A DNA stretch of 64,000 bases from Pseudomonas cremoricolorata. GTDB lineage: Bacteria; Pseudomonadota; Gammaproteobacteria; Pseudomonadales; Pseudomonadaceae. The stretch's first letter is position 1. Each line of letters opens with the position of its first letter. Location: contig NZ_CP009455.1 in NCBI RefSeq assembly GCF_000759535.1, positions 3,224,001-3,288,000 of the forward strand, read 5' to 3'. This document shows positions 6,029 to 17,020 of this stretch, one piece after another. The notes beneath the pieces are model-generated. The model saw nothing but the letters and a program-made list of their open reading frames with translations, made no database searches and was not told the origin of the DNA. The translations under genes and the position numbers were made by a program.

Positions 6029-6589
6029 TCAGCGCATGAAGTGCACTTTGCCCGTATCGTCGTTGCCCATGTACATGCCGTACACCCCGGCCTTGCGTTC
6101 TAGGATGTAGCGTTCGAGGATCTGCCGGATCGCGGGGTAGTAGATCTCGTCCCAGGGGATGTCGTCGGGGTCGAAGAAGCGGTAGGTGAGGGTCTCAGGG
6201 CCGTGCTCGCCGGTTTCTTCCACAGCCAGGGCGCGGAAGATGATGTACACCTCGCTGATCTTCGGCACGCTGAAGATCGAGTAGGGCGAGACGATGTCGG
6301 CGCGCACTCCGGTTTCTTCCCAGACCTCGCGCAGGGCAGCGTCCTCGGTGGTTTCCCCGGCTTCCATGAAGCCTGCGGGCAAGGTCCAGGTACCGGGCTT
6401 GGGCGGGATGGCGCGCTGGCACAGCAGGTAGCGGCCCTCGCGCTCGATGATGCAGCCGGCGATGATCTTGGGGTTTATGTAGTGAATGTAGCCACACGCG
6501 CAGAACAGGCGTTCATGGGTGTCGCCGCTGGGGATGCCCCGAACGAGTGCCTGGGTGCAATGTGGGCAGTAGCGCGGGGCGATGGCCAT
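6029..6589 (-). CDS. NUDIX hydrolase with N-terminal zinc ribbon
   Basis: The 186-aa product has four cysteines in a ribbon at the N-terminus (YCPHCTQAL, then CACGYIHY). The Nudix box GFMEAGETTEDAALREVWEE lies near residue 75 with all catalytic glutamates. The fold hydrolyses nucleoside diphosphates linked to another moiety; NADH or ADP-ribose-type substrates are common for the ribbon-containing subgroup. The gene lies 2 nt after the GntR regulator stop on the same strand, so the two may be co-transcribed. Confidence 0.8.
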   Translation of the reverse strand: MAIAPRYCPHCTQALVRGIPSGDTHERLFCACGYIHYINPKIIAGCIIEREGRYLLCQRAIPPKPGTWTLPAGFMEAGETTEDAALREVWEETGVRADIVSPYSIFSVPKISEVYIIFRALAVEETGEHGPETLTYRFFDPDDIPWDEIYYPAIRQILERYILERKAGVYGMYMGNDDTGKVHFMR

Positions 6590-6591
6590 GA

Positions 6592-7344
6592 TCAGCGACC
6601 TATGCGCGGGTCTTTCTGGGTCAATGGCTCGGCGATCGGGCGCACCGGGGTGTCGTCTTCCTGCTTCTGGCGCAGGTACTCGAGGGCAACGGCAGCGGCG
6701 GCACGAACATGGTCTACCGAGGCCTGGTGAGCAGCGTGCGGGTCGCCGCTCTTGATCGCTTCGACCATTTTCTCCATTTCCCGGTTACTGGCGCCGCGGC
6801 GATTGTGCTGCGACACCGAGGTGGCTCGCAGGTAGCTGATGCGCGCCTGCAACTGGCGCAGCTGCTGGGCGGCGACGCGGTTGCCTGAGCCTTCGAGCAG
6901 CACGTCATAGAAGCCTTGCACCGATTCGAGCACTTGTTGCAGCTCGCCCTGCTCGAGCGACTCGCGGTTTTCTTCCAGCGCCCGTTCCAGGGCACGGATG
7001 TCCTTGCTCTTGGCATTGAGGGTGAAGAGTTGAACGATCAGCCCTTCGAGCACGCAACGCAGCTCGTAGATGTCGCGGGCATCTTCCAGGGTGATGATGG
7101 CGACCCTCGGCCCCTTGGCGTCGGCGAACTCCACCAGCCCTTCGGACTCCAGGTGACGCAGCGCCTCGCGCACCGAAGTGCGGCTGACCCCGAGACGATC
7201 GCACAGGTCGCGCTCGACCAGGCGGTCGCCTGGCAGCAGGTGGAAATTCATGATCGCGCTGCGCAGCTTGTCTAGCACGATCTCGCGCAGGGTGACGGGG
7301 TTGCGGTTGACCTTGAAGCTGTCGTCGAGGGGCTGGCGTTTCAT
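6592..7344 (-). CDS. GntR-family regulator, FadR/FCD subfamily
   Basis: Residues 18-80 form a GntR winged HTH (LREIVLDKLRSAIMNFHLLPG, DLCDRLGVSRTSVREALRHL). The remaining 160 residues are an all-helical FCD effector domain with metal/ligand-type residues (DIYELRCVLEG near residue 100; ISYLRATSVSQHNR). The length of 250 aa is normal. FCD regulators usually repress a neighbouring catabolic operon until bound by a substrate or intermediate. The likely operators are the ATGGTATACCAT-type sites at 11434, 13317 and 13495, all within the adjacent gene cluster. Confidence 0.85.
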   Translation of the reverse strand: MKRQPLDDSFKVNRNPVTLREIVLDKLRSAIMNFHLLPGDRLVERDLCDRLGVSRTSVREALRHLESEGLVEFADAKGPRVAIITLEDARDIYELRCVLEGLIVQLFTLNAKSKDIRALERALEENRESLEQGELQQVLESVQGFYDVLLEGSGNRVAAQQLRQLQARISYLRATSVSQHNRRGASNREMEKMVEAIKSGDPHAAHQASVDHVRAAAAVALEYLRQKQEDDTPVRPIAEPLTQKDPRIGR

Positions 7345-7381
7345 TGGGTGCGCTCTAATAGAGGCTGTGCGCCCATATCAG

Positions 7382-7408
7382 GGAAGCACCGCGAACCGAG
7401 GTGCTTCC
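7382..7408 (-). terminator. hairpin after the CMD-like gene
   Basis: GGAAGCACC and GGTGCTTCC form a perfect 9-bp stem with a 9-nt loop just beyond the stop at 7433 on the minus strand. There is no T-run, so it may be an RNA-stabilising or partial terminator hairpin before gntR. Confidence 0.5.
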
Positions 7409-7432
7409 TGCAGTGGTTCGAACAGCCCGTTG

Positions 7433-7822
7433 TTATCGGGTTGACTCTGCGTCGGCCTCGGCGAACGCTTCGCGGGCCAGGCGGAAACTGTCCACCGCCG
7501 CGGGTACGCCGCAATAGATGCCGACCTGCAGAAGGATCTCGCGAATCTGTTCACGGCTCAGGCCGTTGCGCAGTGCGCCGCGGATGTGCAACTTGAGTTC
7601 GTGCGGCCGGTTGAGGGCGGAAATCATGGCCAAGTTTATCATGCTGCGCTCTTTGAGCGACAAGCCGTCACGGCCCCAGACATGGCCCCAGCAGTACTCG
7701 GTGACCAGATCCTGCAACGGCTTGTTGAAATCGTCGGCGTTCTCGATCGAGCGATTGACGTAAGCCTCGCCCAGCACTTGCGTGCGGATCGCCAGGCCTT
7801 TTTCGTACTTCTCGTTGCTCAT
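7433..7822 (-). CDS. carboxymuconolactone decarboxylase (CMD/AhpD-like) family protein
   Basis: The start at 7822 (MSNEKYEKGLAIR) has GGAG 7 nt upstream; an ATG two codons earlier lacks spacing. The 129-aa product has the CMD fold signature: YCWGHVWGRDGLSLKERSMI, then ELKLHIRGALRNGLSREQI and GIYCGVPAAVDSFRLA. In 4-carboxymuconolactone decarboxylase this fold decarboxylates a lactone; other members are peroxidase-like. The classic CxxC of AhpD is absent, which favours a decarboxylase or isomerase type. It is the last gene of the minus-strand operon 11395-7433. Confidence 0.8.
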   Translation of the reverse strand: MSNEKYEKGLAIRTQVLGEAYVNRSIENADDFNKPLQDLVTEYCWGHVWGRDGLSLKERSMINLAMISALNRPHELKLHIRGALRNGLSREQIREILLQVGIYCGVPAAVDSFRLAREAFAEADAESTR

Positions 7823-7879
7823 CTGCATGCTCCGAATGAAAACGGGGGCCACAACCGAGGGTGAGTGGGCGCGGCCCCC

Positions 7880-7915
7880 AAAAAAGGCTCTGCCAGACCT
7901 GGCGCAGGCCAGGTC
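7880..7915 (-). terminator. possible attenuator between flavin reductase and CMD genes
   Basis: On the minus strand GACCTGGC, a 4-nt loop and GCCAGGTC form a stem (7896-7915), followed after about ten nt by six T residues (7885-7880). It lies in the 106-nt gap inside the operon and could reduce expression of the distal CMD gene. Confidence 0.4.
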
Positions 7916-7928
7916 GGCAAAGGACGGA

Positions 7929-8414
7929 TCAGCCTAGCGCCGGCAGGGCGCCCAGCTTGCCGCGATGATAGACCATCGGCGCCACGGGCTCTGCCGGCAG
8001 CACCAGGTTTTTCACGGCGCCGACGATGATGGCGTGGTCGCCACCGTCGTACTCGCGCCACAGCTCGCACTCGATGATCGCGGTAGCATTGCTCAGCAGC
8101 GGGTTGCCCAGCTCGCTCAGGTGCCACTCGATGCCTTGCGCCTTGTCTTTGCCTTTGCCGGCGAAGGCATAAGCCTCGGCGGTTTGCCCGGCTGACAGCA
8201 GATGGATCGCAAAGCGCTTGCTGTCGCGCAGGATCGGGTAGGTGTCCGAGGCATAGTTGGGGCAGAACAATACCAGTGCCGGGTCGATCGACAGCGCGCT
8301 GAAGGCGCTGGCGGTGATGCCGACGAGGGCGCCATCGGCGTCCAGGGTAGTCACCACCGTGACACCTGACGGGAACGAGCCCATCACTTCTTTATAGATG
8401 CCAGGTTCGATCAT
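7929..8414 (-). CDS. flavin reductase (copy 1), NAD(P)H:FMN reductase family
   Basis: The 161-aa product is a short-chain flavin reductase (HpaC/RutF-like): GSFPSGVTVVTTLDADG, ITASAFSALSIDPALVLFCP and GDHAIIVGAVKNL. Such enzymes give reduced FMN to a partner monooxygenase. It aligns without gaps to the copy at 12776-13261 with about 70% identity by eye. It sits between the CMD and aldehyde dehydrogenase genes of the same operon, away from the LLM monooxygenase. It may serve a second oxygenase or supply the same one under different control. Confidence 0.88.
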   Translation of the reverse strand: MIEPGIYKEVMGSFPSGVTVVTTLDADGALVGITASAFSALSIDPALVLFCPNYASDTYPILRDSKRFAIHLLSAGQTAEAYAFAGKGKDKAQGIEWHLSELGNPLLSNATAIIECELWREYDGGDHAIIVGAVKNLVLPAEPVAPMVYHRGKLGALPALG

Positions 8415-8429
8415 CTTGGCGTTACCTCT

Positions 8430-9911
8430 TCAGCGCATCACGAATGGATCGGGCATCGGCGCGGTGGACAGGTTGATCCACACGGTCTTCAGCTCGGTAT
8501 AGGCAAGCACCGAATCGATGCCGCTCTCGCGGCCGTAGCCGCTGTTCTTGAAACCACCGATCGGCGCCATGGCCGAGACGGCGCGATAGGTATTGACCCA
8601 GATGATCCCTGAACGCACGTCGCGCGCCAAGCGGTGGGCGCGGCCCAGGTCGCGGGTCCAGATGCCGGCAGCGAGGCCGAACTGCGAGTCGTTGGCCATC
8701 GCCAGGGCCTCTTGCTCGGTCTTGAAGCGGATGACCGCAGCGACCGGACCGAACACCTCTTCCTGCATGATGGTCATCGAATTGCTGTCGCATTCGAACA
8801 GGGTCGGCTCGTAGAACCAGCCATCACCCTCGACCTCGGCGCGCTTGCCGCCCAAATGCAGCTTGGCGCCTTCGGCCTTGGCCGCAGCGACCAGGCCTTC
8901 GACCACCGCCAGTTGCTGCGCGGTGGCCATCGGGCCCATTTCGCTGGCGTCGTCGGCCGGGTTGCCGATGCGAATACGCTTGGCGCGCTCGATCAGGCGG
9001 CTGACGAACTCATCGAAGATGTCATCCTGCACCAGCAGCCGCGAACCGGCCACGCAGCTTTGCCCGGAGGCGGCATAGATACCGGCAACCGCACCGTTGA
9101 TGGCGCTGTCCAGGTCGGCGTCGGCGAAGATGATGTTGGGCGACTTGCCGCCCAGTTCCAGCGACAGCTTGGCGAAGTTCTCGGCGCTGCTGCGCACCAC
9201 GTGACGTGCAGTGGCGGCGCCGCCGGTGAAGGCGATCTTGCGTACCAGCGGGTGACGGGTGAGGGCGGCGCCAGCGCTTGGGCCGTAGCCGGTGACGACG
9301 TTCACCACACCGGCCGGGAAGCCGGCTTCCAGGGCCAGGCGGGCCAGTTCGAGAATGGTCGCCGAGGCATGCTCGGACGGCTTGAGCACGATGGTGTTGC
9401 CGGCGGCCAGGGCTGGGGCCAGCTTGATCGCGGTCAGGTACAGCGGGCTGTTCCACGGAATGATGCCAGCCACCACGCCGATCGGCTCGTGCACGGTGTA
9501 GGCGAACAGGTCGGGTTTATCCAGCGGCAGCGTGCCGCCTTCGAGCTTGTCGGCCAGGCCTGCGGTGTAATGGAAGAACTCGGGCAGGTAACCGACCTGG
9601 CCGCGGGTTTCGCGAATCAGCTTGCCGTTGTCTCGGCTTTCCAACTGCGCGAGGTGTTCTTTGTTTTCCGCGATCAACTCGCCAAGACGGCGCAGCAGCT
9701 TGCCGCGGGCGGTGGCGGTGAGGCCACGCCAGGCACTGCTTTCGAAGGCGCGCTGGGCCGCCTGCACGGCCAGTTCGACGTCCGCTTCATCGGCGTCGGG
9801 CAGCTGCGACCAGGCCTGGGCTGTGGCCGGATTGAGACTGTCGAAGGTCTTGCCATTCTGGGCGTCGACCCATTGGCCGTCGATGCACATCTGGAAACGT
9901 ACGAGGGTCAT
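8430..9911 (-). CDS. NAD(P)-dependent aldehyde dehydrogenase
   Basis: The 493-aa product has a complete ALDH catalytic set: Asn154 in PWNSPLY, Glu252 in LELGGKSPN and Cys286 in SGQSCVAGS. The NAD-binding Rossmann segment (FTGGAATARHVV) lies near residue 230. It oxidises an aldehyde intermediate to the acid. In flavin-dependent ring-opening pathways such as trigonelline degradation, an ALDH acts right after ring cleavage. The start overlaps the stop of the upstream alpha/beta hydrolase by 4 nt (ATGA), indicating translational coupling. Confidence 0.9.
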   Translation of the reverse strand: MTLVRFQMCIDGQWVDAQNGKTFDSLNPATAQAWSQLPDADEADVELAVQAAQRAFESSAWRGLTATARGKLLRRLGELIAENKEHLAQLESRDNGKLIRETRGQVGYLPEFFHYTAGLADKLEGGTLPLDKPDLFAYTVHEPIGVVAGIIPWNSPLYLTAIKLAPALAAGNTIVLKPSEHASATILELARLALEAGFPAGVVNVVTGYGPSAGAALTRHPLVRKIAFTGGAATARHVVRSSAENFAKLSLELGGKSPNIIFADADLDSAINGAVAGIYAASGQSCVAGSRLLVQDDIFDEFVSRLIERAKRIRIGNPADDASEMGPMATAQQLAVVEGLVAAAKAEGAKLHLGGKRAEVEGDGWFYEPTLFECDSNSMTIMQEEVFGPVAAVIRFKTEQEALAMANDSQFGLAAGIWTRDLGRAHRLARDVRSGIIWVNTYRAVSAMAPIGGFKNSGYGRESGIDSVLAYTELKTVWINLSTAPMPDPFVMR

Positions 9912-10741
9912 GCAACTATTCCCTTGGCAGATTCGGTGAGAGTACGGGCTTGCCGGAGGAAGTCCAGCAGCATCTTGTTGACTTCACGCGGCGCTTCCAC
10001 GGGCATCATGTGGCGTTGTTCGGCAAGCACTGCGCATTGCGCATTGGGGATGCGCGCGGCCAGTTGGCGGGCCATGGCCGGGGTCGAACCGGCGTCGAGC
10101 TCGCCAGTGGCGATCAGGGTCGGCACCTGGATGCGGCCGAGGTCATCGGCGCGGTACATGTCCTGGGTGGCGAACAGCGAATAGGTGGTGTGATAACCCT
10201 GCGGGTCGTTGTTGGCCAGCACCTGGCGGAGGGCCGCGACCTGCGCCGGGTTGGCGGCTTTGTATTCACGGCTGAACCAGCGCTCGAGGGCGGCATCGAC
10301 GTTGGCGTCGGGGCCCAGTTCGGCGGCCTGGGCGGCGCGGGCGATGACCCCGGCGCTCTGCTCGGGCGAGCGGTTGAACACGCTGTTGAGCACGACCAGC
10401 GCCGAGACGCGCTGCGCGTAGGCGAGGGCGAAGGCGCGGGCAACCAGGCCGCCCATGGAGAAGCCGATGACCGTGGCCTGCGGGATCTGCAGGTGGTCGA
10501 GCAATTCGGCGAGCTGGTCGGCGTAGCCTTGCAGGGGCGTGTCGGCGGCCGGCACGCGGCTCTGGCCATGGCCGAGCATGTCGTAGCAGATGACCCGATA
10601 ATCGGCCGCAAGACCGACCACCTGGCCACCCCACATTTCCTTGTTCAGACCCACGCCGTGGATCAGCACCACAGGTTGCCCCTGGCCTTGGCTGAAATAG
10701 CTGGTCCCGGCCGGAGTACGTTCAGCGACAGGCTGAATCAT
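9908..10741 (-). CDS. alpha/beta-fold hydrolase
   Basis: The 277-aa product has the oxyanion motif LIHGVGLNKEMWG and nucleophile elbow GFSMGG (Ser95). Asp216 (TGELDAG) and His244 (EQRHMMPVE) complete a textbook triad. It belongs to the RutD/MhpC/3-oxoadipate enol-lactonase-like group. In the Rut pathway the alpha/beta hydrolase speeds carbamate breakdown. In the Tgn and vitamin-B6 pathways it hydrolyses an amidomethylene-succinate. A similar C-N cleavage is a reasonable guess here. Confidence 0.88.
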   Translation of the reverse strand: MIQPVAERTPAGTSYFSQGQGQPVVLIHGVGLNKEMWGGQVVGLAADYRVICYDMLGHGQSRVPAADTPLQGYADQLAELLDHLQIPQATVIGFSMGGLVARAFALAYAQRVSALVVLNSVFNRSPEQSAGVIARAAQAAELGPDANVDAALERWFSREYKAANPAQVAALRQVLANNDPQGYHTTYSLFATQDMYRADDLGRIQVPTLIATGELDAGSTPAMARQLAARIPNAQCAVLAEQRHMMPVEAPREVNKMLLDFLRQARTLTESAKGIVA

Positions 10742-10798
10742 GGATGACGCTCCTTGCGGGATGGAGCGCGCGCGGCGCTCCTTCCCATCTGGTTGTTG

Positions 10799-11395
10799 TT
10801 ATTGAGCGTTGGCTTTTTCAGCAGCCAGTTCTTCCAGATCGATGTAGCGGTTGCCGATACGCGGGTGCAGACGGCCACCGTCGGCAGCGCCCAGGACCAC
10901 GACGATCTCGTCGGCGCGCGGCGCGTCTTCGATCTGCATTTCCAGGGTGATGTAGTGCGAGCGCTGGCCTTCGTCGTCTTTCTGCATCATCGGGATCTGG
11001 ATCGAGGTGCCTGGGCCACCACGCTTGTTGGTGAAGCTCAGGTAGCTCTTGGCCTGTACCGCTTCGCGGTAGTGGTTGCCGAAGCGCAGGGTGTGGATCA
11101 CTGCCGAGGCGTGCTCGATCTCGCCATCGGCGCCGACCACAGCGGCTTTACCGTAGGCTTCGATCTTGTCGGCGCCGCCGATGGCAGCCACCAGACGCTC
11201 GACCATCAGCTCGCCAAGCTCGGAGCAGTTGGCGCGGATTTCCGGCTTCAGATCGTCAACGAACCCGCGGCCCGCCCATGGGTTCTTGATCACCACGGCC
11301 AGGCCGACCATGGTCACGGGCTTGTCAGTGGCTTTGAAACCTTCGATGCGGGTCTCTTCGGAGTAGGTGACGATCTTGCGGATTTCGAAACTCAT
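10799..11395 (-). CDS. AA_synth (DUF1185) family protein
   Basis: The 198-aa product reads MSFEIRKIVTYSEETRIEGF, with later motifs KNPWAGRGFVDDL, YGKAAVVGADGEIEHASAVI and GGPGTSIQIP. These are typical of the AA_synth family. The family is described as having a chorismate-mutase-like fold and no proven reaction. RutC/Rid enamine deaminases share that general fold, so it could act on an unstable enamine or imine after ring cleavage. It is the first gene of the minus-strand operon and has an operator-like site 33 nt upstream. The product seems complete. Confidence 0.8.
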   Translation of the reverse strand: MSFEIRKIVTYSEETRIEGFKATDKPVTMVGLAVVIKNPWAGRGFVDDLKPEIRANCSELGELMVERLVAAIGGADKIEAYGKAAVVGADGEIEHASAVIHTLRFGNHYREAVQAKSYLSFTNKRGGPGTSIQIPMMQKDDEGQRSHYITLEMQIEDAPRADEIVVVLGAADGGRLHPRIGNRYIDLEELAAEKANAQ

Positions 11396-11427
11396 GAGCG
11401 GCTCCTTGGGAGGTTACTGGGTCTTGT

Positions 11428-11450
11428 TGTCTGATGGTATACCATAATAT
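11428..11450 (-). promoter_or_regulatory. operator/promoter 1 of the catabolic locus
   Basis: The perfect 12-bp palindrome ATGGTATACCAT (11434-11445) fits GntR/FCD operators. On the minus strand TTGCAG, 16 nt and TACCAT form a possible -35/-10, so the operator covers the -10 of the AA_synth operon. The site is 21/22 identical to the one at 13311-13332 and shares ATACCATAATAT with the one at 13495. Confidence 0.65.
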
Positions 11451-11558
11451 TTGTTCTGCAAGCGCTGCCTGCAAAAATCCCCACGGCGGGAGACGAAGGG
11501 TCCGCTGCTCCACTGATTTGCGGGCCAGCTGTACTGGCTGTGCACCCCTTCGATATAA

Positions 11559-11602
11559 AAAAAGCCCGCTTGCAAGGCCCATGCGGGCCACCGCAAGCGG
11601 GC
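11559..11602 (-). terminator. rho-independent terminator after the LLM gene
   Basis: On the minus strand GCCCGCTTGC and GCAAGCGGGC form a 10-bp stem around a GC-rich internal hairpin, followed by seven T residues. It ends the flavin reductase 2/LLM operon upstream of operator 1. Confidence 0.8.
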
Positions 11603-11632
11603 CGATCCCGCAATCATTCAGGCAATGGGAAT

Positions 11633-12676
11633 TCAGGCGAACGCAGGCACCACTTCCTTGATGAACAGCTCAAGGGATTTTTTCTTCTCGGCGTGGGGCA
11701 AACTGTTGTCGCACCAGAAGCTGAACTCGTCGACGCCCAGTTCCTGGTAGTACTTGATCCGCGCGATCACCTCTTCGGGGGTGCCGATCATGGTGTTCTT
11801 GCGGATGTTGTCCAGGTCGAACGCCGGCACTTCGGCGAATTTCGATTCCGGGCTTGGCTCGAGGAAGCCGTTGACTGGGGTGGTCTTGTTGCCGAACCAG
11901 GCATCGAAGGTGCGGTAGAAGCGCGAGATCGCCTGGGCGCCGATCTTCCAGCCATCGGGCTCATCGGCGCTGTGCACGTGGGTGTGACGCAGCACCATCA
12001 ATTGCGGGCGCGGCACTTCGGGGTTGTTGTCCAGAGCGGCCTGGAACTTGTTCTTCAGGTCGAGCACTTCTTCATCGCCCTTCATCAGCGGCGTGACCAT
12101 CACGTTGCAGCCGTTCTTCACTGCGAAATTGTGCGAGTCAGGGTCGCGGGCGGCGATCCACATCGGTGGCATGCCGGCTTGCACGGGCTTGGGTACGCTG
12201 GTGGAGGTGGGGAATTTGTACACCTCGCCTTCGAAGGCGTAGTCGCCTTCCCACAGTTTACGTACCACGGGCACCATTTCCCGCAGGGCCTTGCCACCGT
12301 CGGTGGCCGGCATGCCGTTAGCCATGCGGTCGAACTCGAACTGGTAGGCGCCACGGGCCAGACCCACTTCCATGCGGCCATTGCTGATCACGTCGAGCAG
12401 GGCGCATTCACCGGCAACCCGGATCGGGTTCCAGAAAGGCGCAATGATGGTGCCGGCACCCAGGTGGATGGTCTCGGTGCGGGCGGCCAGATAGGCCAGC
12501 AGCGGCATCGGGCTGGGCGAAATGGTGTATTCCATGGCGTGGTGCTCGCCGATCCACACCGTGCTGAACCCGCCTGCTTCGGCCATCAGGGTCAGTTCGG
12601 TGAGGTCTTCGAACAACTGGCGGTGGCTGACCTGGTCATCCCAACGTTCCATGTGCACGAACAGCGAAAATTTCAT
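11633..12676 (-). CDS. LLM-class (luciferase-like) flavin-dependent monooxygenase
   Basis: The 347-aa product starts MKFSLFVHMERWDDQVSHRQ. It has the luciferase-like TIM-barrel signatures GFSTVWIGEHHAMEYTISPS, HLGAGTIIAPFWNPIRVAGE and DVISNGRMEVGLARGAYQFE. Members use reduced FMN and oxygen to hydroxylate or cleave substrates; RutA and TgnB-type enzymes open N-heterocycles. A flavin reductase gene lies directly upstream in the same operon and should supply FMNH2. This is probably the ring-attacking step of the locus. The substrate cannot be read from the sequence. Confidence 0.9.
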   Translation of the reverse strand: MKFSLFVHMERWDDQVSHRQLFEDLTELTLMAEAGGFSTVWIGEHHAMEYTISPSPMPLLAYLAARTETIHLGAGTIIAPFWNPIRVAGECALLDVISNGRMEVGLARGAYQFEFDRMANGMPATDGGKALREMVPVVRKLWEGDYAFEGEVYKFPTSTSVPKPVQAGMPPMWIAARDPDSHNFAVKNGCNVMVTPLMKGDEEVLDLKNKFQAALDNNPEVPRPQLMVLRHTHVHSADEPDGWKIGAQAISRFYRTFDAWFGNKTTPVNGFLEPSPESKFAEVPAFDLDNIRKNTMIGTPEEVIARIKYYQELGVDEFSFWCDNSLPHAEKKKSLELFIKEVVPAFA

Positions 12677-12775
12677 GGGGCATTTCCTCGACGCGTGAAA
12701 GGTGTCGGCTGGCTGGGCCAGCGGCAGATCGAAGGACGGACGCCGTCGGCAACCGTCGTACTAATTAAGGGAAAT

Positions 12776-13261
12776 TCAGGCCAGGGCGGGCAGGCTGGCC
12801 ATCTTGCCGTGGCAGTACACCAGCGGTTGCGGGGCTTGCGCGGGAACGATCAGGTTCTGCACCTTGCCGACCATGATGGCGTGGTCGCCACCTTCGTATT
12901 CGCGCCACAGCTCGCACTCGATGACCGCCGTGGCGCCTGCCAGAATCGGATTGCCCAGCTCGCTCAGGCTCCATTGGATACCGGCTGCCTTGTCCTTGCC
13001 TTTGCGGGCGAAGGCGTAGGCCTCGGCCTGCTGTTCACCCGACAAGAGGTGAATGGCGAAGCGCTTTTTCTGAATCAGCACAGGATAGGATTCGGAGCTG
13101 TAATTGGGGCAGAACAGCACCAGCGGCGGGTCCATCGACAGGGAGGAGAAAGCACTGGCGGTCAGGCCGACGATTGCGCCGTCGTCATCCAGAGTAGTGA
13201 TGACCGTGACGCCGGAGGGGAACGAGCCCAGGACGTGCTTATAGACAGTTGCGTCGATCAT
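12776..13261 (-). CDS. flavin reductase (copy 2), partner of the LLM monooxygenase
   Basis: The start at 13261 (MIDATVYKHVLGSFPSGVTV) gives 161 aa, exactly the length of the paralogue at 7929-8414. The frame continues upstream to 13372, but that segment contains the operator and promoter, so the shorter form is chosen. Motifs: LTASAFSSLSMDPPLVLFCP, RFAIHLLSGEQ and GGDHAIMVGKV. It should reduce FMN with NAD(P)H for the LLM enzyme 99 nt downstream. Confidence 0.88.
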   Translation of the reverse strand: MIDATVYKHVLGSFPSGVTVITTLDDDGAIVGLTASAFSSLSMDPPLVLFCPNYSSESYPVLIQKKRFAIHLLSGEQQAEAYAFARKGKDKAAGIQWSLSELGNPILAGATAVIECELWREYEGGDHAIMVGKVQNLIVPAQAPQPLVYCHGKMASLPALA

Positions 13262-13310
13262 GACGGGGTCCTCGCAGGGGAGAGCGGTAGGCCGCTTTTT
13301 ATCGTTGATG

Positions 13311-13332
13311 TGTCTGATGGTATACCGTAATA
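13311..13332 (-). promoter_or_regulatory. operator/promoter 2 of the catabolic locus
   Basis: TGTCTGATGGTATACC and the following GTAATA match operator 1 at 21 of 22 positions. On the minus strand TTGCAA, 16 nt and TACCAT reproduce the -35/-10 layout of site 1, about 50 nt upstream of the flavin reductase 2 start. The rest of the 315-nt gap 13262-13577 holds the promoters and no further gene. Confidence 0.65.
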
Positions 13333-13478
13333 CCCAATTTGCAAGTGGAAATTTCTTTGCCACATTCGACATGATGAGCGGTAAAAACCCAATGAATACG
13401 GGGTGCTGAAGCGTTTCTTCACCTGATACAGCTCACTCGACAAGCGGATCAGAGACGCATTTCAGATGCGGATCAGTG

Positions 13479-13509
13479 TTGTCAAAAGCTTGGAATACCA
13501 TAATATGGT
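13479..13509 (+). promoter_or_regulatory. promoter/operator 3, upstream of the NCS1 permease
   Basis: TTGTCA (13479-13484), 16 nt and TAATAT (13501-13506) form a good sigma70 promoter. The -10 lies inside the motif ATACCATAATAT (13495-13506) shared with site 1, and ACCATA-A-TATGGT (13497-13509) is a perfect palindrome. A repressor bound here would block the permease promoter. Confidence 0.6.
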
Positions 13510-13577
13510 CTTCAGCAGAGAGGCCGCCCCGATGCGGTTTCCTACAACGATAAAAATGATCTCCGAGCTCAAATCCT

Positions 13578-14990
13578 ATGTCCCAGCCGTCTTCGCAAAA
13601 GCAGTTTGTCGAGAATCACACGGTCGATTACGTTCCACCTGCCGAGCGCCATGGGAAGGCGCGTGACCTGTTCACTCTCTGGTTCAGTACCAACATCGCA
13701 CCACTGCCCATCGTCACCGGGGCGATGGTGGTTCAGGTGTTCCACCTCAATCTGCTTTGGGGCCTGATCGCTATCGCCCTGGGTCATCTGCTGGGCGGTG
13801 CAGTGCTCGCGCTTGCCTCGGCCCAGGGGCCGCAACTGGGCATTCCGCAGATGGTGCAGAGCCGCGGCCAGTTCGGTCGCTACGGTGCCTTGCTGATCGT
13901 GTTCTTCACCGCGCTCATCTATGTCGGCTTCTTCATTTCCAACATCGTGCTGGCGGGCAAGTCGATTCATGGCATCGCCCCCAGCGTGCCGATGCCGACC
14001 GCGATCGTGGTGGGCGCCCTCAGTGCCACGGCCATCGGCGTGATCGGCTACCGCTTCATCCATAGCCTCAACCGGATCGGTACGTGGGTGATGGGTTCGG
14101 CGCTGCTGGCAGGCTTCATCATGATGTTCACCCAGGAGCTGCCGGCCGACTTCTTCAGCCGTGGCGCCTTCAACCTGTCGGGCTTCATCGCCACGGTGTC
14201 GCTGGGCACCATCTGGCAGATCAGCTTCTCGCCCTACACCTCGGACTACTCGCGCTACCTGCCGCGTGAAATCGGCATCGCCAAACCGTTCTGGGCTACC
14301 TACTTCGGCGCTACGCTGGGCACCATTCTGTGCTTCAGCTTCGGTGCCATCGCAGTGCTGAGCGTTCCGGAAGGGGTCGAGGCCATGGATGCAGTGAAGC
14401 AGGCCACCGGCTGGCTGGGCCCGATCCTGATGGTGCTGTTCCTGCTCAACATCATCAGCCACAACGCCCTCAACCTGTATGGCGCCGTGCTGTCGATCGT
14501 TACTGCGATCCAGACCTTCTTCGCCAGCTGGACCCCCAGCGTCAAAGTGCGTGTCGTGCTCGCAGCGGTGATTCTGCTGGCCTGCGGTGCGGTCGCGCTG
14601 AATGCCTCGGCCAACTTCATCAGCCAGTTCATCGGCCTGATCCTGGCGCTGCTGGTGGTGTTGGTGCCTTGGGCTGCGATCAACCTGATCGACTTCTACC
14701 TGATCAAGAAGGGCGAGTACGACATCGCGTCGATCTTCAGCGCCGACGGCGGTATCTACGGCCGCTTCAACCATCACGCGATCATCGCTTACGCCTGCGG
14801 CATTCTGGTGCAGCTGCCGTTCGCCAACACCGCGTTGTACGTCGGTCCTTATTCGAACTTGATCGAAGGCGCAGACCTGTCCTGGCTATTCGGTCTGCTG
14901 GTGACCGCGCCGCTGTACTACTGTCTGGCTACCCGCGCCAAGGCAACCCAGGCGGCCAAGGCGCCCAAACCGGTAACCGTCGGCCACTGA
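13578..14990 (+). CDS. NCS1-family permease (purine-cytosine permease type)
   Basis: The 470-aa product has about twelve membrane helices. Helix-1 residues fit NCS1 transporters (FTLWFSTNIAPLPIVTGAMV), as does the QISFSPYTSDYSRYLP segment near residue 215, a region that binds substrate in NCS1 transporters. Known substrates of the family are cytosine, allantoin, hydantoins, thiamine and pyridoxine, all N-heterocycles or relatives. It is divergent from the flavin reductase 2/LLM operon and shares its operator motif, so it is probably the uptake system for the substrate of the locus. Confidence 0.85.
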   Translation: MSQPSSQKQFVENHTVDYVPPAERHGKARDLFTLWFSTNIAPLPIVTGAMVVQVFHLNLLWGLIAIALGHLLGGAVLALASAQGPQLGIPQMVQSRGQFGRYGALLIVFFTALIYVGFFISNIVLAGKSIHGIAPSVPMPTAIVVGALSATAIGVIGYRFIHSLNRIGTWVMGSALLAGFIMMFTQELPADFFSRGAFNLSGFIATVSLGTIWQISFSPYTSDYSRYLPREIGIAKPFWATYFGATLGTILCFSFGAIAVLSVPEGVEAMDAVKQATGWLGPILMVLFLLNIISHNALNLYGAVLSIVTAIQTFFASWTPSVKVRVVLAAVILLACGAVALNASANFISQFIGLILALLVVLVPWAAINLIDFYLIKKGEYDIASIFSADGGIYGRFNHHAIIAYACGILVQLPFANTALYVGPYSNLIEGADLSWLFGLLVTAPLYYCLATRAKATQAAKAPKPVTVGH

Positions 14991-15059: not shown

Positions 15060-16685
15060 TCAGACCTTGAACTTGGCGACCAGGCCATTGAGGTCTACTG
15101 CCAGACGCGAGAGGTCCTGGGCGGCGGCGCTGGTCTGGTTGGCGCCGGCAGAGGTCTGCATCGCCAGGTCACGGATGTTCACCAGGTTACGGTCGACTTC
15201 GCGTGCCACCTGCGCCTGCTCCTCCGAGGCGCTGGCAATGACCAGGTTGCGCTGGTTGATCGAGGTGATGGCCTCGGCGATCACCTCCAGCGCCTGCCCC
15301 GCGCCTTGCGCGACCTCCAGGGTGCCGTTGGCGCGCCCCTGGCTGCTGTGCATGGCACTGACCGCGCGCCCGGTGCCAGTCTGGATGCCAGCGATCATCG
15401 CTTCTATTTCCTCGGTCGATTCCTGGGTGCGGTGGGCCAACGCGCGCACTTCGTCAGCCACCACTGCAAACCCGCGTCCGGCTTCACCGGCGCGGGCGGC
15501 CTCGATGGCGGCATTCAACGCCAGCAGGTTGGTCTGCCCGGCAATCGCGCCGATGACGTCGAGCACCCGACTGATTTCGTTGGCGTGGCCGGCCAGTTGC
15601 TCGATCTCTCGAGCGGTGCCGGCCACATCACTGACCAGATGCTCGATCGAGGCCAGCGCCTGATTGACCTGGTCGCGGCCGTCGCGGGTGTTCTGGTCGG
15701 CGCCTTTGGAGGCATCGGCCGTGCTGACGGCATTGCTGGCGACTTCCTCGACCGCTGCCGTCATCTGATTGACCGCGGTGGCGGCCTGGTCGATTTCCGC
15801 GCTTTGTTGATGCAGGCCGCGGCTGGTGTCTTCGGTAACGGTGTGCAGCTCTTCCGAGGCCGAGGCCAACTGATCAGAAGAGGCGGCGATCTGCCGCAAG
15901 GTCTCGCGCAAGCTGTGTTGCATGCCGCTCAAGGCGCGCAACAGCAAAGCCGGTTCGTCGCGACCGTGCACGTGAATGTCCTGGGTCAGGTCGCCGGTGG
16001 CCACACGCTCGGCGACCGCAACTGCATCGGCCAGGGGCACAACGATGCTGCGGGTGAGGAGGGTGGCGATAGCGGCCAGGGCCAGCATGATCAGCACCAG
16101 CGCCGCGATGATTGCAGTGAAGGCTTCATCGGCCACGTCACTCGAATATTGCGAGGCATCCTGGGCGCCTTTGCCGTTGAAGGCGATCAGTGCCTGCAAG
16201 GCGCTCATCATGGCATCGGCGTCCGCTGCCAGTGGGCCGGTAATCAGCGCCTTGGCCTGTGTATCCTGAGTGCTGGCGATCAACTGCTGCACTTGCGTCT
16301 GCAGCGTGCTATAGCGCTGCCAGGCATCTTCAAAGGTCGTGAACAGGGCTTTTTCGTCGGCTTCGTCAAGGGTCTGGGCGTAACGCTGAATCTGCCCAAC
16401 CAGCTCGGTGTTGACCCGCTCGGTCTCGGCCAGGTTGCGGCTGCGTTCACTGGCATCGTCATCGAGCATGGCGCGCAAGGTGAGGGCGCGGACGCGTCCG
16501 ATGTCGGTACCCACACCGCTCAGCGCCAGCACTGCGGGGGTCCAGGTCAGGCGAATTTCGTCGGTGGCTTTGTCCATCTGCTGAGTTTCATAGAGCGCGA
16601 CAAGCCCCATCATCAGCACCAGTGCCCCAAGTAGGGCGAATACGCTCGCGGCCCGTCTACCGATCTTCATGTTGCGAAACTGCAT
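15060..16685 (-). CDS. methyl-accepting chemotaxis protein with four-helix-bundle sensor
   Basis: The start at 16685 ([16 protein letters not shown]) has AGGAG upstream and puts the first membrane helix at residues 12-32; upstream in-frame codons look non-coding. A periplasmic four-helix-bundle-like sensor spans about 33-187, the second helix about 188-212, and HAMP follows. The signalling domain has the conserved hairpin tip [20 protein letters not shown]. Length is 541 aa. It relays ligand binding to CheA/CheW. The ligand is unknown; its position next to the catabolic locus makes a related compound possible but unproven. Confidence 0.88.
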
Positions 16686-17020
16686 GGGTTGCTCCTGAAC
16701 GTTGGCCTGCAGCACGCCAAAGCCTGGAGTGGACGCGCCACCCCTGGTATCTGGCTCCAGCAGCGCTGCGTGGGGTGCGAGGTGGTCCTCACCTCTGGAA
16801 AACTCCGGCAAAATGATTACACATGGCCATCATTATTGACCAGCCATTCAATGTAACCACTCGTACTCGCTTGAGCGTCGCGTGATGACCGTACAGTTAC
16901 AGAAGTTCATGCCGCGACTGTGCTTGCCGGTGGCACACAGACTAGCCGGGCCACTAAGCCGTACCCAATGAACGATCCCTTAGGTACGATGAATCTTTAT
17001 TTTCGAATGTAGAGGGCACT
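16686..17020. other. 335-nt divergent intergenic region
   Basis: The region separates the divergent chemoreceptor and sohB genes. It holds the ribosome-binding site of the former near 16690 and AGAGGG before the GTG start of sohB. I see no RNA gene, repeat or convincing small ORF in it. Confidence 0.6.

Follow-up and report, generated by a model that had tools for sequence, protein, structure and literature searches.

A probable Pseudomonas form of the trigonelline-type catabolic locus with a distinct reductase architecture and a two-locus regulon

A locus of ten genes in Pseudomonas cremoricolorata is probably the Pseudomonas form of the trigonelline-type (tgn) catabolic locus, serving the uptake of its substrate and oxidative ring opening to succinate semialdehyde. 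It lies at positions 6029–14990 of a 64,000-nucleotide stretch (contig NZ_CP009455.1, positions 3,224,001 to 3,288,000; hereafter the window), within a genome of 4.78 Mb assembled as one contig. Nine of its genes are on the minus strand and one, encoding an NCS1 permease, is on the plus strand. Trigonelline (N-methylnicotinate) is a nitrogen-ring compound common in plants. Our reading is carried by the gene content, the homology to an annotated tgn locus, a common operator and co-inheritance within Pseudomonas. The system is of a known kind; its architecture is distinct, and its regulon spans two loci. Both this regulon and the un-fused reductase/NUDIX architecture are apparently new, and a literature search by title and abstract gave no description of the locus or its two-locus regulon among the matches listed.

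An earlier note, made from the sequence alone, had described the region as an uncharacterised locus that takes up an N-heterocycle and opens it oxidatively. Uptake and oxidative opening remain the best reading, but the route is not an uncharacterised one, as an Acinetobacter tgn locus has a homologue of each gene type. The luciferase-like monooxygenase (LLM) of the locus is present in 139 of 249 Pseudomonas genomes sampled, over half, and this apparently unknown locus yields the testable prediction that its carriers utilise the plant metabolite trigonelline. Moreover, four proteins that are poorly understood (AA_synth, CMD, NUDIX and DUF1330) and a riboflavin gene become linked to a single pathway or operator, so that each of them can be assayed in a defined setting.

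Gene content and match to the tgn locus

The tgn locus of Acinetobacter, encoding TgnA–F, was reportedly described by Perchat et al. in 2018. A plasmid record of Acinetobacter sp. PK01 (locus L115 in our set) names tgnA, tgnB and tgnC, surrounded by genes for a DUF1330 protein, a GntR regulator, an AA_synth protein, a hydrolase, an NCS1 permease, a porin-like protein, a succinate-semialdehyde dehydrogenase (SSADH) and a CMD protein. We assigned the window proteins to families by Pfam matches, each above its cut-off, and thereby confirmed every family listed in the earlier note: an LLM, two flavin reductases, an aldehyde dehydrogenase (ALDH), an alpha/beta hydrolase, an AA_synth protein, a CMD protein, an NCS1 permease and a GntR regulator. 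To these we add a gene for a NUDIX hydrolase. Identities to L115 span 36–77%; the comparison with the tgn system drawn in the note was the correct lead. At the other end of the scale, the ten genes are 98–100% identical to locus L009 of Pseudomonas cremoricolorata (AA_synth, 99%). Pseudomonas capeferrum WCS358 also has the locus (L014).

The LLM (11633–12676; Pfam Bac_luciferase) matches the annotated TgnB over its full length with 50% identity and, judging from its sequence, is most likely a TgnB-type ring-opening oxygenase. Within the best 120 of 1,311 matches in a protein search, its top matches are Pseudomonas proteins with up to 88% identity, and four matches at 76–81% carry the same product name as three NCBI proteins found with an Acinetobacter relative. 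The ALDH (8430–9911; Pfam Aldedh) is TgnC-like: its identity to the annotated TgnC is 53%, whereas the SSADH of L115 matches it at 37%. In place of TgnD stands the alpha/beta hydrolase (9908–10741; assigned by Pfam), which shares with the tgn-locus hydrolase its place in the set and 37% identity, within a large superfamily. The TgnF-like AA_synth protein (10799–11395; Pfam AA_synth, DUF1185) and the NCS1 permease (13578–14990, plus strand; Pfam Transp_cyt_pur) are both 56% identical to their tgn counterparts, the PcaC-like CMD protein (7433–7852; Pfam CMD) 77% and the GntR/FCD regulator (6592–7344; Pfam GntR and FCD) 36%. The permease is probably the substrate importer and the regulator probably a ligand-responsive repressor of the regulon, while the CMD protein is possibly a decarboxylase. 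No TgnB- or TgnF-named NCBIfam model was among the matches listed for the window proteins.

Flavin reductase 1 (7929–8414; Pfam Flavin_Reduct) is 36% identical to TgnA and lacks its C-terminal domain; flavin reductase 2 (12776–13261; assigned by Pfam) is 38% identical. The open reading frame of the latter extends to 13372, but homology puts its start at 13261, so that the operator at 13313–13332 described below falls outside the gene. The NUDIX hydrolase (6029–6589; Pfam NUDIX and Zn_ribbon_Nudix), which lies outside the region covered by the earlier note, is a homologue of the C-terminal domain of TgnA.

The AA_synth and CMD proteins had been taken to lie outside the known pathways. This view does not stand: AA_synth corresponds to TgnF and CMD is likewise encoded in the tgn locus, so that both 'extra' proteins have counterparts in the known system. 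According to a passage of PMC7913881, TgnF is homologous to the AA_synth protein HcdD and stimulates the TgnE-dependent oxidation of succinate semialdehyde, an effect not observed for HcdD.

For a wider comparison, we hand-picked 19 relatives outside the close Pseudomonas set from the match lists, scoring a gene as absent if the stretch retrieved did not contain it. LLM, ALDH, hydrolase and AA_synth occur in all 19, a flavin reductase in 17, GntR in 16, CMD in 7 and NCS1 in 6. Six of them (L109–L114) had been found through AA_synth itself and the other 13 through an LLM, and all of these 13 also hold AA_synth. No flavin reductase was detected in the fetched stretches of L104 and L105, though LLM, ALDH, hydrolase and AA_synth are there.

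A common operator and a second locus

The palindromic operator TGGTATACCATAATA has five matches with at most three mismatches in the window, where 0.20 are expected; none of 100 shuffles reached five, the shuffle maximum being two. The five matches form three sites. Before AA_synth (11430–11449), TGGTATACCATAATA is exact on the plus strand with a two-mismatch copy on the minus strand; before reductase 2 and the LLM (13313–13332), it has one mismatch on the plus strand and three on the minus strand; and before the permease (13491–13505, plus strand) it has one. The common operator claimed in the earlier note is therefore real, while its three transcription units remain presumed from operators and gene order.

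The sites recur in related loci. An operator with at most two mismatches lies 5' of AA_synth in 86 of 88 loci whose AA_synth is at least 60% identical; shuffled regions never came below three mismatches. Both misses, L099 and L104, are cuts of one genome, in which the LLM heads the unit and has the operator in front of it. Likewise, the upstream region of the permease carries a one-mismatch match in 65 of 68 loci. The LLM itself is directly preceded by the operator in 14 of 83 upstream regions, two of which (L097 and L106) are again cuts of one genome, and the operator is absent in 24 of 99 reductase-2 rows, many of which are in fact reductase-1 genes from loci where no reductase 2 is near (L132 and L134 are among the misses). 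Among the 19 distant stretches, the tgn loci included, 17 contain the operator at two mismatches or fewer, in the tgn loci before AA_synth; L089 and L105 have no match at this threshold. Matches with up to three mismatches are not unusual by chance in distant stretches, with a mean of 1.2 per stretch in shuffled Acinetobacter DNA.

Across the whole genome, seven matches with at most two mismatches form five sites, versus a single match for a reversed control pattern. Three of these sites are in the window; the other two are in a second locus outside it (L139, 8472–14100). There, genes for a DUF1330 protein and RibBA diverge from one site, and the other site precedes an ABC transporter (binding protein, two permeases and ATPase).

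Co-inheritance in Pseudomonas

We surveyed 249 Pseudomonas genomes, counting AA_synth only if it was of the 79–100% type; as these genomes are interrelated, the following co-occurrence counts are not independent events. AA_synth is present in 141 genomes, the LLM in 139 and both in 138. Three genomes have AA_synth without LLM, one has the LLM without AA_synth (a 73% complete genome) and 107 have neither, two of the latter with a 53–54% AA_synth. The binding protein of the operator-linked ABC transporter (E 1e-130) is found in 141 genomes, among them all 139 with the LLM; it is only a 64–66% relative in G425, G470 and G526, and a partial match with a stop in G416.

The starts of the LLM and AA_synth genes are within 3 kb of each other in just 30 of the 138 genomes; they are farther apart on the same contig in 83 and on different contigs in 25. 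That their link persists despite this physical separation argues for one pathway. We also considered that another oxygenase replaces the LLM in non-putida Pseudomonas, where the AA_synth module has no adjacent LLM. We reject this, as the LLM is present in 138 of the 141 AA_synth genomes, often elsewhere. Separately, eight genomes (G334, G407, G338, G417, G492, G516, G436 and G466) carry a second or only a distant AA_synth (53–54% or 71–73%); these copies perhaps belong to hcd-type or other pathways.

Relationships of the oxygenase

We built an LLM tree of 52 rows, a selection from the loci and proteins that had been retrieved, including RutA and five of seven own-genome paralogues (L003 and L007 were not recovered). 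Within it, 46 window-type and TgnB-type oxygenases group together (support 95/93), apart from RutA and the five paralogues; the nearest outsider is the L005 paralogue on a very long branch, and the tree's long-branch warning concerns L104. The TgnB type forms a clade of 22 rows (100/100); the other 24 rows, of the window type, fall outside it without forming a resolved clade themselves. Of 347 window positions, 100 are nearly invariant across both types, and 15 are fixed differences, many of which we judge conservative. The phylogenetic comparison suggested in the earlier note thus places the LLM with TgnB, though outside the TgnB clade proper, and far from RutA. The tight grouping with a characterised family of non-heterocyclic substrate by which the note would have been refuted was not seen; the family around the LLM takes its name from a heterocyclic substrate.

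These data also bear on the second comparison made in that note, to the Rut pathway. Members of the NCS1 family carry nucleobases and hydantoins, and the permease, together with the weak RutF/RutD similarity of the flavin reductase and hydrolase, would suit a pyrimidine/Rut-like or other uracil- or hydantoin-type ring opening. We consider such a pathway very improbable, and reject the Rut reading of the locus: the LLM matches E. coli K-12 RutA with just 26% identity over 170 residues (E 8e-5), RutA falls outside the tree group, and no window protein matches RutB, RutC or RutG of E. coli K-12 better than E 0.05, the permease aligning with RutG over only 24 residues at chance level.

Flavin reductases and the NUDIX protein

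In pairwise alignment, the window NUDIX protein and the C-terminal half of TgnA share 26% identity (49 bits). Profile comparison of the two domains gave a probability of 99.6% over 135 columns, compared with 0.1% for a reductase profile and 0.6% for a reversed control. In all 15 reductase-bearing TgnB-type loci, this NUDIX profile matches the reductase's own frame and no other in the stretch (E 5e-5 to 1e-14). By contrast, it matches a frame of its own in the window-type loci L089, L103 and L104, L103 and L104 being among the rows from which the profile was built. A profile search of the L105 stretch returned neither a separate nor a fused NUDIX.

The Nudix box of the window protein is intact (GFMEAGETTEDAALREVWEETGV). 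The aligned TgnA C-terminal domains lack the REVxEExG core; of the 15 rows of this alignment, L128 and L089 are fragments of reductases with misplaced starts, and L101 repeats L102. Pfam did not detect a NUDIX domain in TgnA. The NUDIX gene belongs to the gene set of the locus by these sequence comparisons and may have a flavin-related role. A further arrangement is seen in Mesorhizobium amorphae (L091, 8208–9995), where hydrolase, flavin reductase and a NUDIX-like tail form a single protein of 595 residues.

Transporters, neighbouring genes and the substrate

The importers vary among the loci, being NCS1 permeases, BCCT betaine transporters or ABC systems. BCCT transporters accompany the window-type loci L103 and L104, the TgnB-type locus L105 and the AA_synth module of Pseudomonas L069; such interchangeable betaine transporters would fit a zwitterionic quaternary substrate. 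TgnB-type loci have methylamine-type neighbours, which fit an N-methyl substrate there: sarcosine oxidase and FolD/PurU in L115, and an FMN-binding glutamate synthase and a type III glutamate-ammonia ligase in L112. Another TgnB-type locus, L102 (185–19478), is flanked by sarcosine-oxidase-, FolD- and glutamate-synthase-type genes, which suggests use of released methylamine or of an N-methyl amino acid.

On the Sinorhizobium meliloti plasmid pSymA (L090), the gene set is flanked by a nodulation gene on one side and a nif gene on the other. The oxygenase encoded there shares 72% identity with TgnB and 50% with the window LLM, and the ABC binding protein of S. meliloti shares 61% with the operator-linked one of the window genome. 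A strain deleted for pSymA did not grow on trigonelline, according to a passage that names no genes (PMC4207669).

These clues bear on another alternative, in which a Baeyer-Villiger-type LLM pathway would act on a ring without nitrogen, such as a lactone or coumarin-like compound, the hydrolase and CMD protein being PcaD/PcaC-like lactone enzymes. Both indeed score nearest PcaD and PcaC: the top PDB match of the hydrolase is the 3-oxoadipate enol-lactonase 2xua, and the CMD protein reaches 154.9 bits against a PcaC cut-off of 155.7. Moreover, type II Baeyer-Villiger monooxygenases are among the LLM-family enzymes (in a passage of PMC4631483), and HcdD takes part in 7-hydroxycoumarin degradation (in one of PMC7913881). 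We nevertheless give this alternative very little weight, as LLM, ALDH and AA_synth match the tgn set and relatives have betaine transporters and methylamine-type neighbours.

Two further observations concern the surroundings. A methyl-accepting chemotaxis protein with a 4HB sensor (15060–16811) adjoins the permease in the window and may sense the substrate; homologues of its sensor domain occur in 36 of 139 fetched loci, beside the permease in 32, and the tgn-type locus of Paraburkholderia sprentiae (L116) also contains a chemoreceptor. The plasmid pDCT5 of Arthrobacter dokdonellae (L089, 342–11068) combines a 77% LLM with SSADH, riboflavin kinase, NUDIX, NCS1, two AA_synth proteins and a tautomerase, with no operator match.

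Proposed pathway and its alternatives

We infer the substrate, the individual steps and the repression as follows. Trigonelline, our best guess for the substrate, or a very close N-methylpyridinium carboxylate would be imported by the NCS1 permease, probably aided by the operator-linked ABC transporter. Flavin reductases 1 and 2 would supply reduced flavin to the LLM, which, by homology, would open the ring by oxidation and give an N-methylformamido aldehyde/hydroxybutyrolactone. This product would be oxidised by the ALDH in the manner of TgnC, which the L115 record calls (Z)-2-((N-methylformamido)methylene)-5-hydroxybutyrolactone dehydrogenase. In the tgn pathway, hydrolysis and decarboxylation then yield succinate semialdehyde and set formate and methylamine free. 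Here, the alpha/beta hydrolase, perhaps with the CMD protein in the decarboxylase role that we propose for it, would cut the enamide to succinate semialdehyde, which a GabD-like SSADH encoded elsewhere (62%) would convert to succinate. GntR would repress all units via the common operator until substrate or an intermediate appears.

Several points weigh against this scheme. The LLM and hydrolase are only 50% and 37% identical to the tgn proteins, and since the LLM stands outside the well supported TgnB clade, its substrate may have shifted. The reductases are single-domain, duplicated and without the fused C-terminal domain. A TgnE-type SSADH is absent from the window cluster, its nearest counterpart being the 62% protein elsewhere in the genome (relative L104 has an SSADH within its cluster), and NCS1 and CMD are found in just 6 and 7 of the 19 relatives. 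AA_synth is by itself not diagnostic, as members of its family occur in a coumarin cluster and, according to a passage of PMC2954203, beside branched-chain amino-acid transport genes. Finally, the annotation of L115 itself rests on homology, and the genes are unnamed in the pSymA passage of PMC4207669.

At 50% identity there is room for a sister substrate, for example a close N-methylpyridinium carboxylate. An alternative that goes further, which we regard as unlikely, keeps the chemistry and ancestry and has the window-type enzymes moved to another pyridine-type substrate, such as homarine, N-methylnicotinamide, N-methylpyridinium or an unmethylated pyridine carboxylate. The position of the LLM with its 15 fixed differences, the different reductase architecture, the varying transporter types and the tautomerase and two AA_synth genes of the Arthrobacter relative would agree with it. 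On the other hand, AA_synth, CMD (77%), permease and operator are the same as in tgn, and a DUF1330 gene lies behind the operator here too. A second LLM of this family (E 1e-100) is absent from all 249 Pseudomonas genomes, and there is thus no sign there of labour divided between two such enzymes.

In a more speculative and equally doubtful form, the window type would be a second, functionally distinct tgn branch that opens a different N-methylpyridinium or a free pyridine ring. The separate, catalytically competent NUDIX protein, RibBA and the two reductases would form its dedicated flavin-supply module, and TgnA would have arisen with NUDIX fused to the reductase and its catalytic box lost. 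Weighing these points, we prefer the trigonelline-type reading.

Comparison with known systems

The Rut system of E. coli is alike in principle, with LLM-type ring opening supported by a flavin reductase and an alpha/beta hydrolase. It differs in that RutA is distant, RutB and RutC have no counterpart in the window and RutG is unrelated to the window permease. With the hcd cluster for 7-hydroxycoumarin in Pseudomonas mandelii, the locus shares the AA_synth protein (HcdD), whereas the first step there is carried out by an alcohol-dehydrogenase-type enzyme, to judge by the title of PMC7913881. The pyridine (pyr) pathway of Arthrobacter sp. 68b reportedly uses an LLM as well, PyrA; no sequence of that name appeared among the matches listed.

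The pSymA locus of S. meliloti resembles the window in AA_synth, hydrolase, reductase, LLM, ALDH, a related ABC transporter and operator-like sites with two mismatches. Its LLM is of the TgnB type, however, and its stretch has a NIPSNAP gene and neither NCS1 nor CMD.

The tgn locus of Acinetobacter shares the LLM oxygenase, flavin reductase, TgnC-type ALDH, alpha/beta hydrolase, AA_synth, GntR, NCS1, CMD and the operator before AA_synth. In contrast to its fused TgnA, the window has two single-domain reductases and a separate NUDIX protein; the window cluster has no SSADH and its LLM is 50% identical; and the window genome keeps the ABC transporter, RibBA and DUF1330 in a second locus that is not linked to the first.

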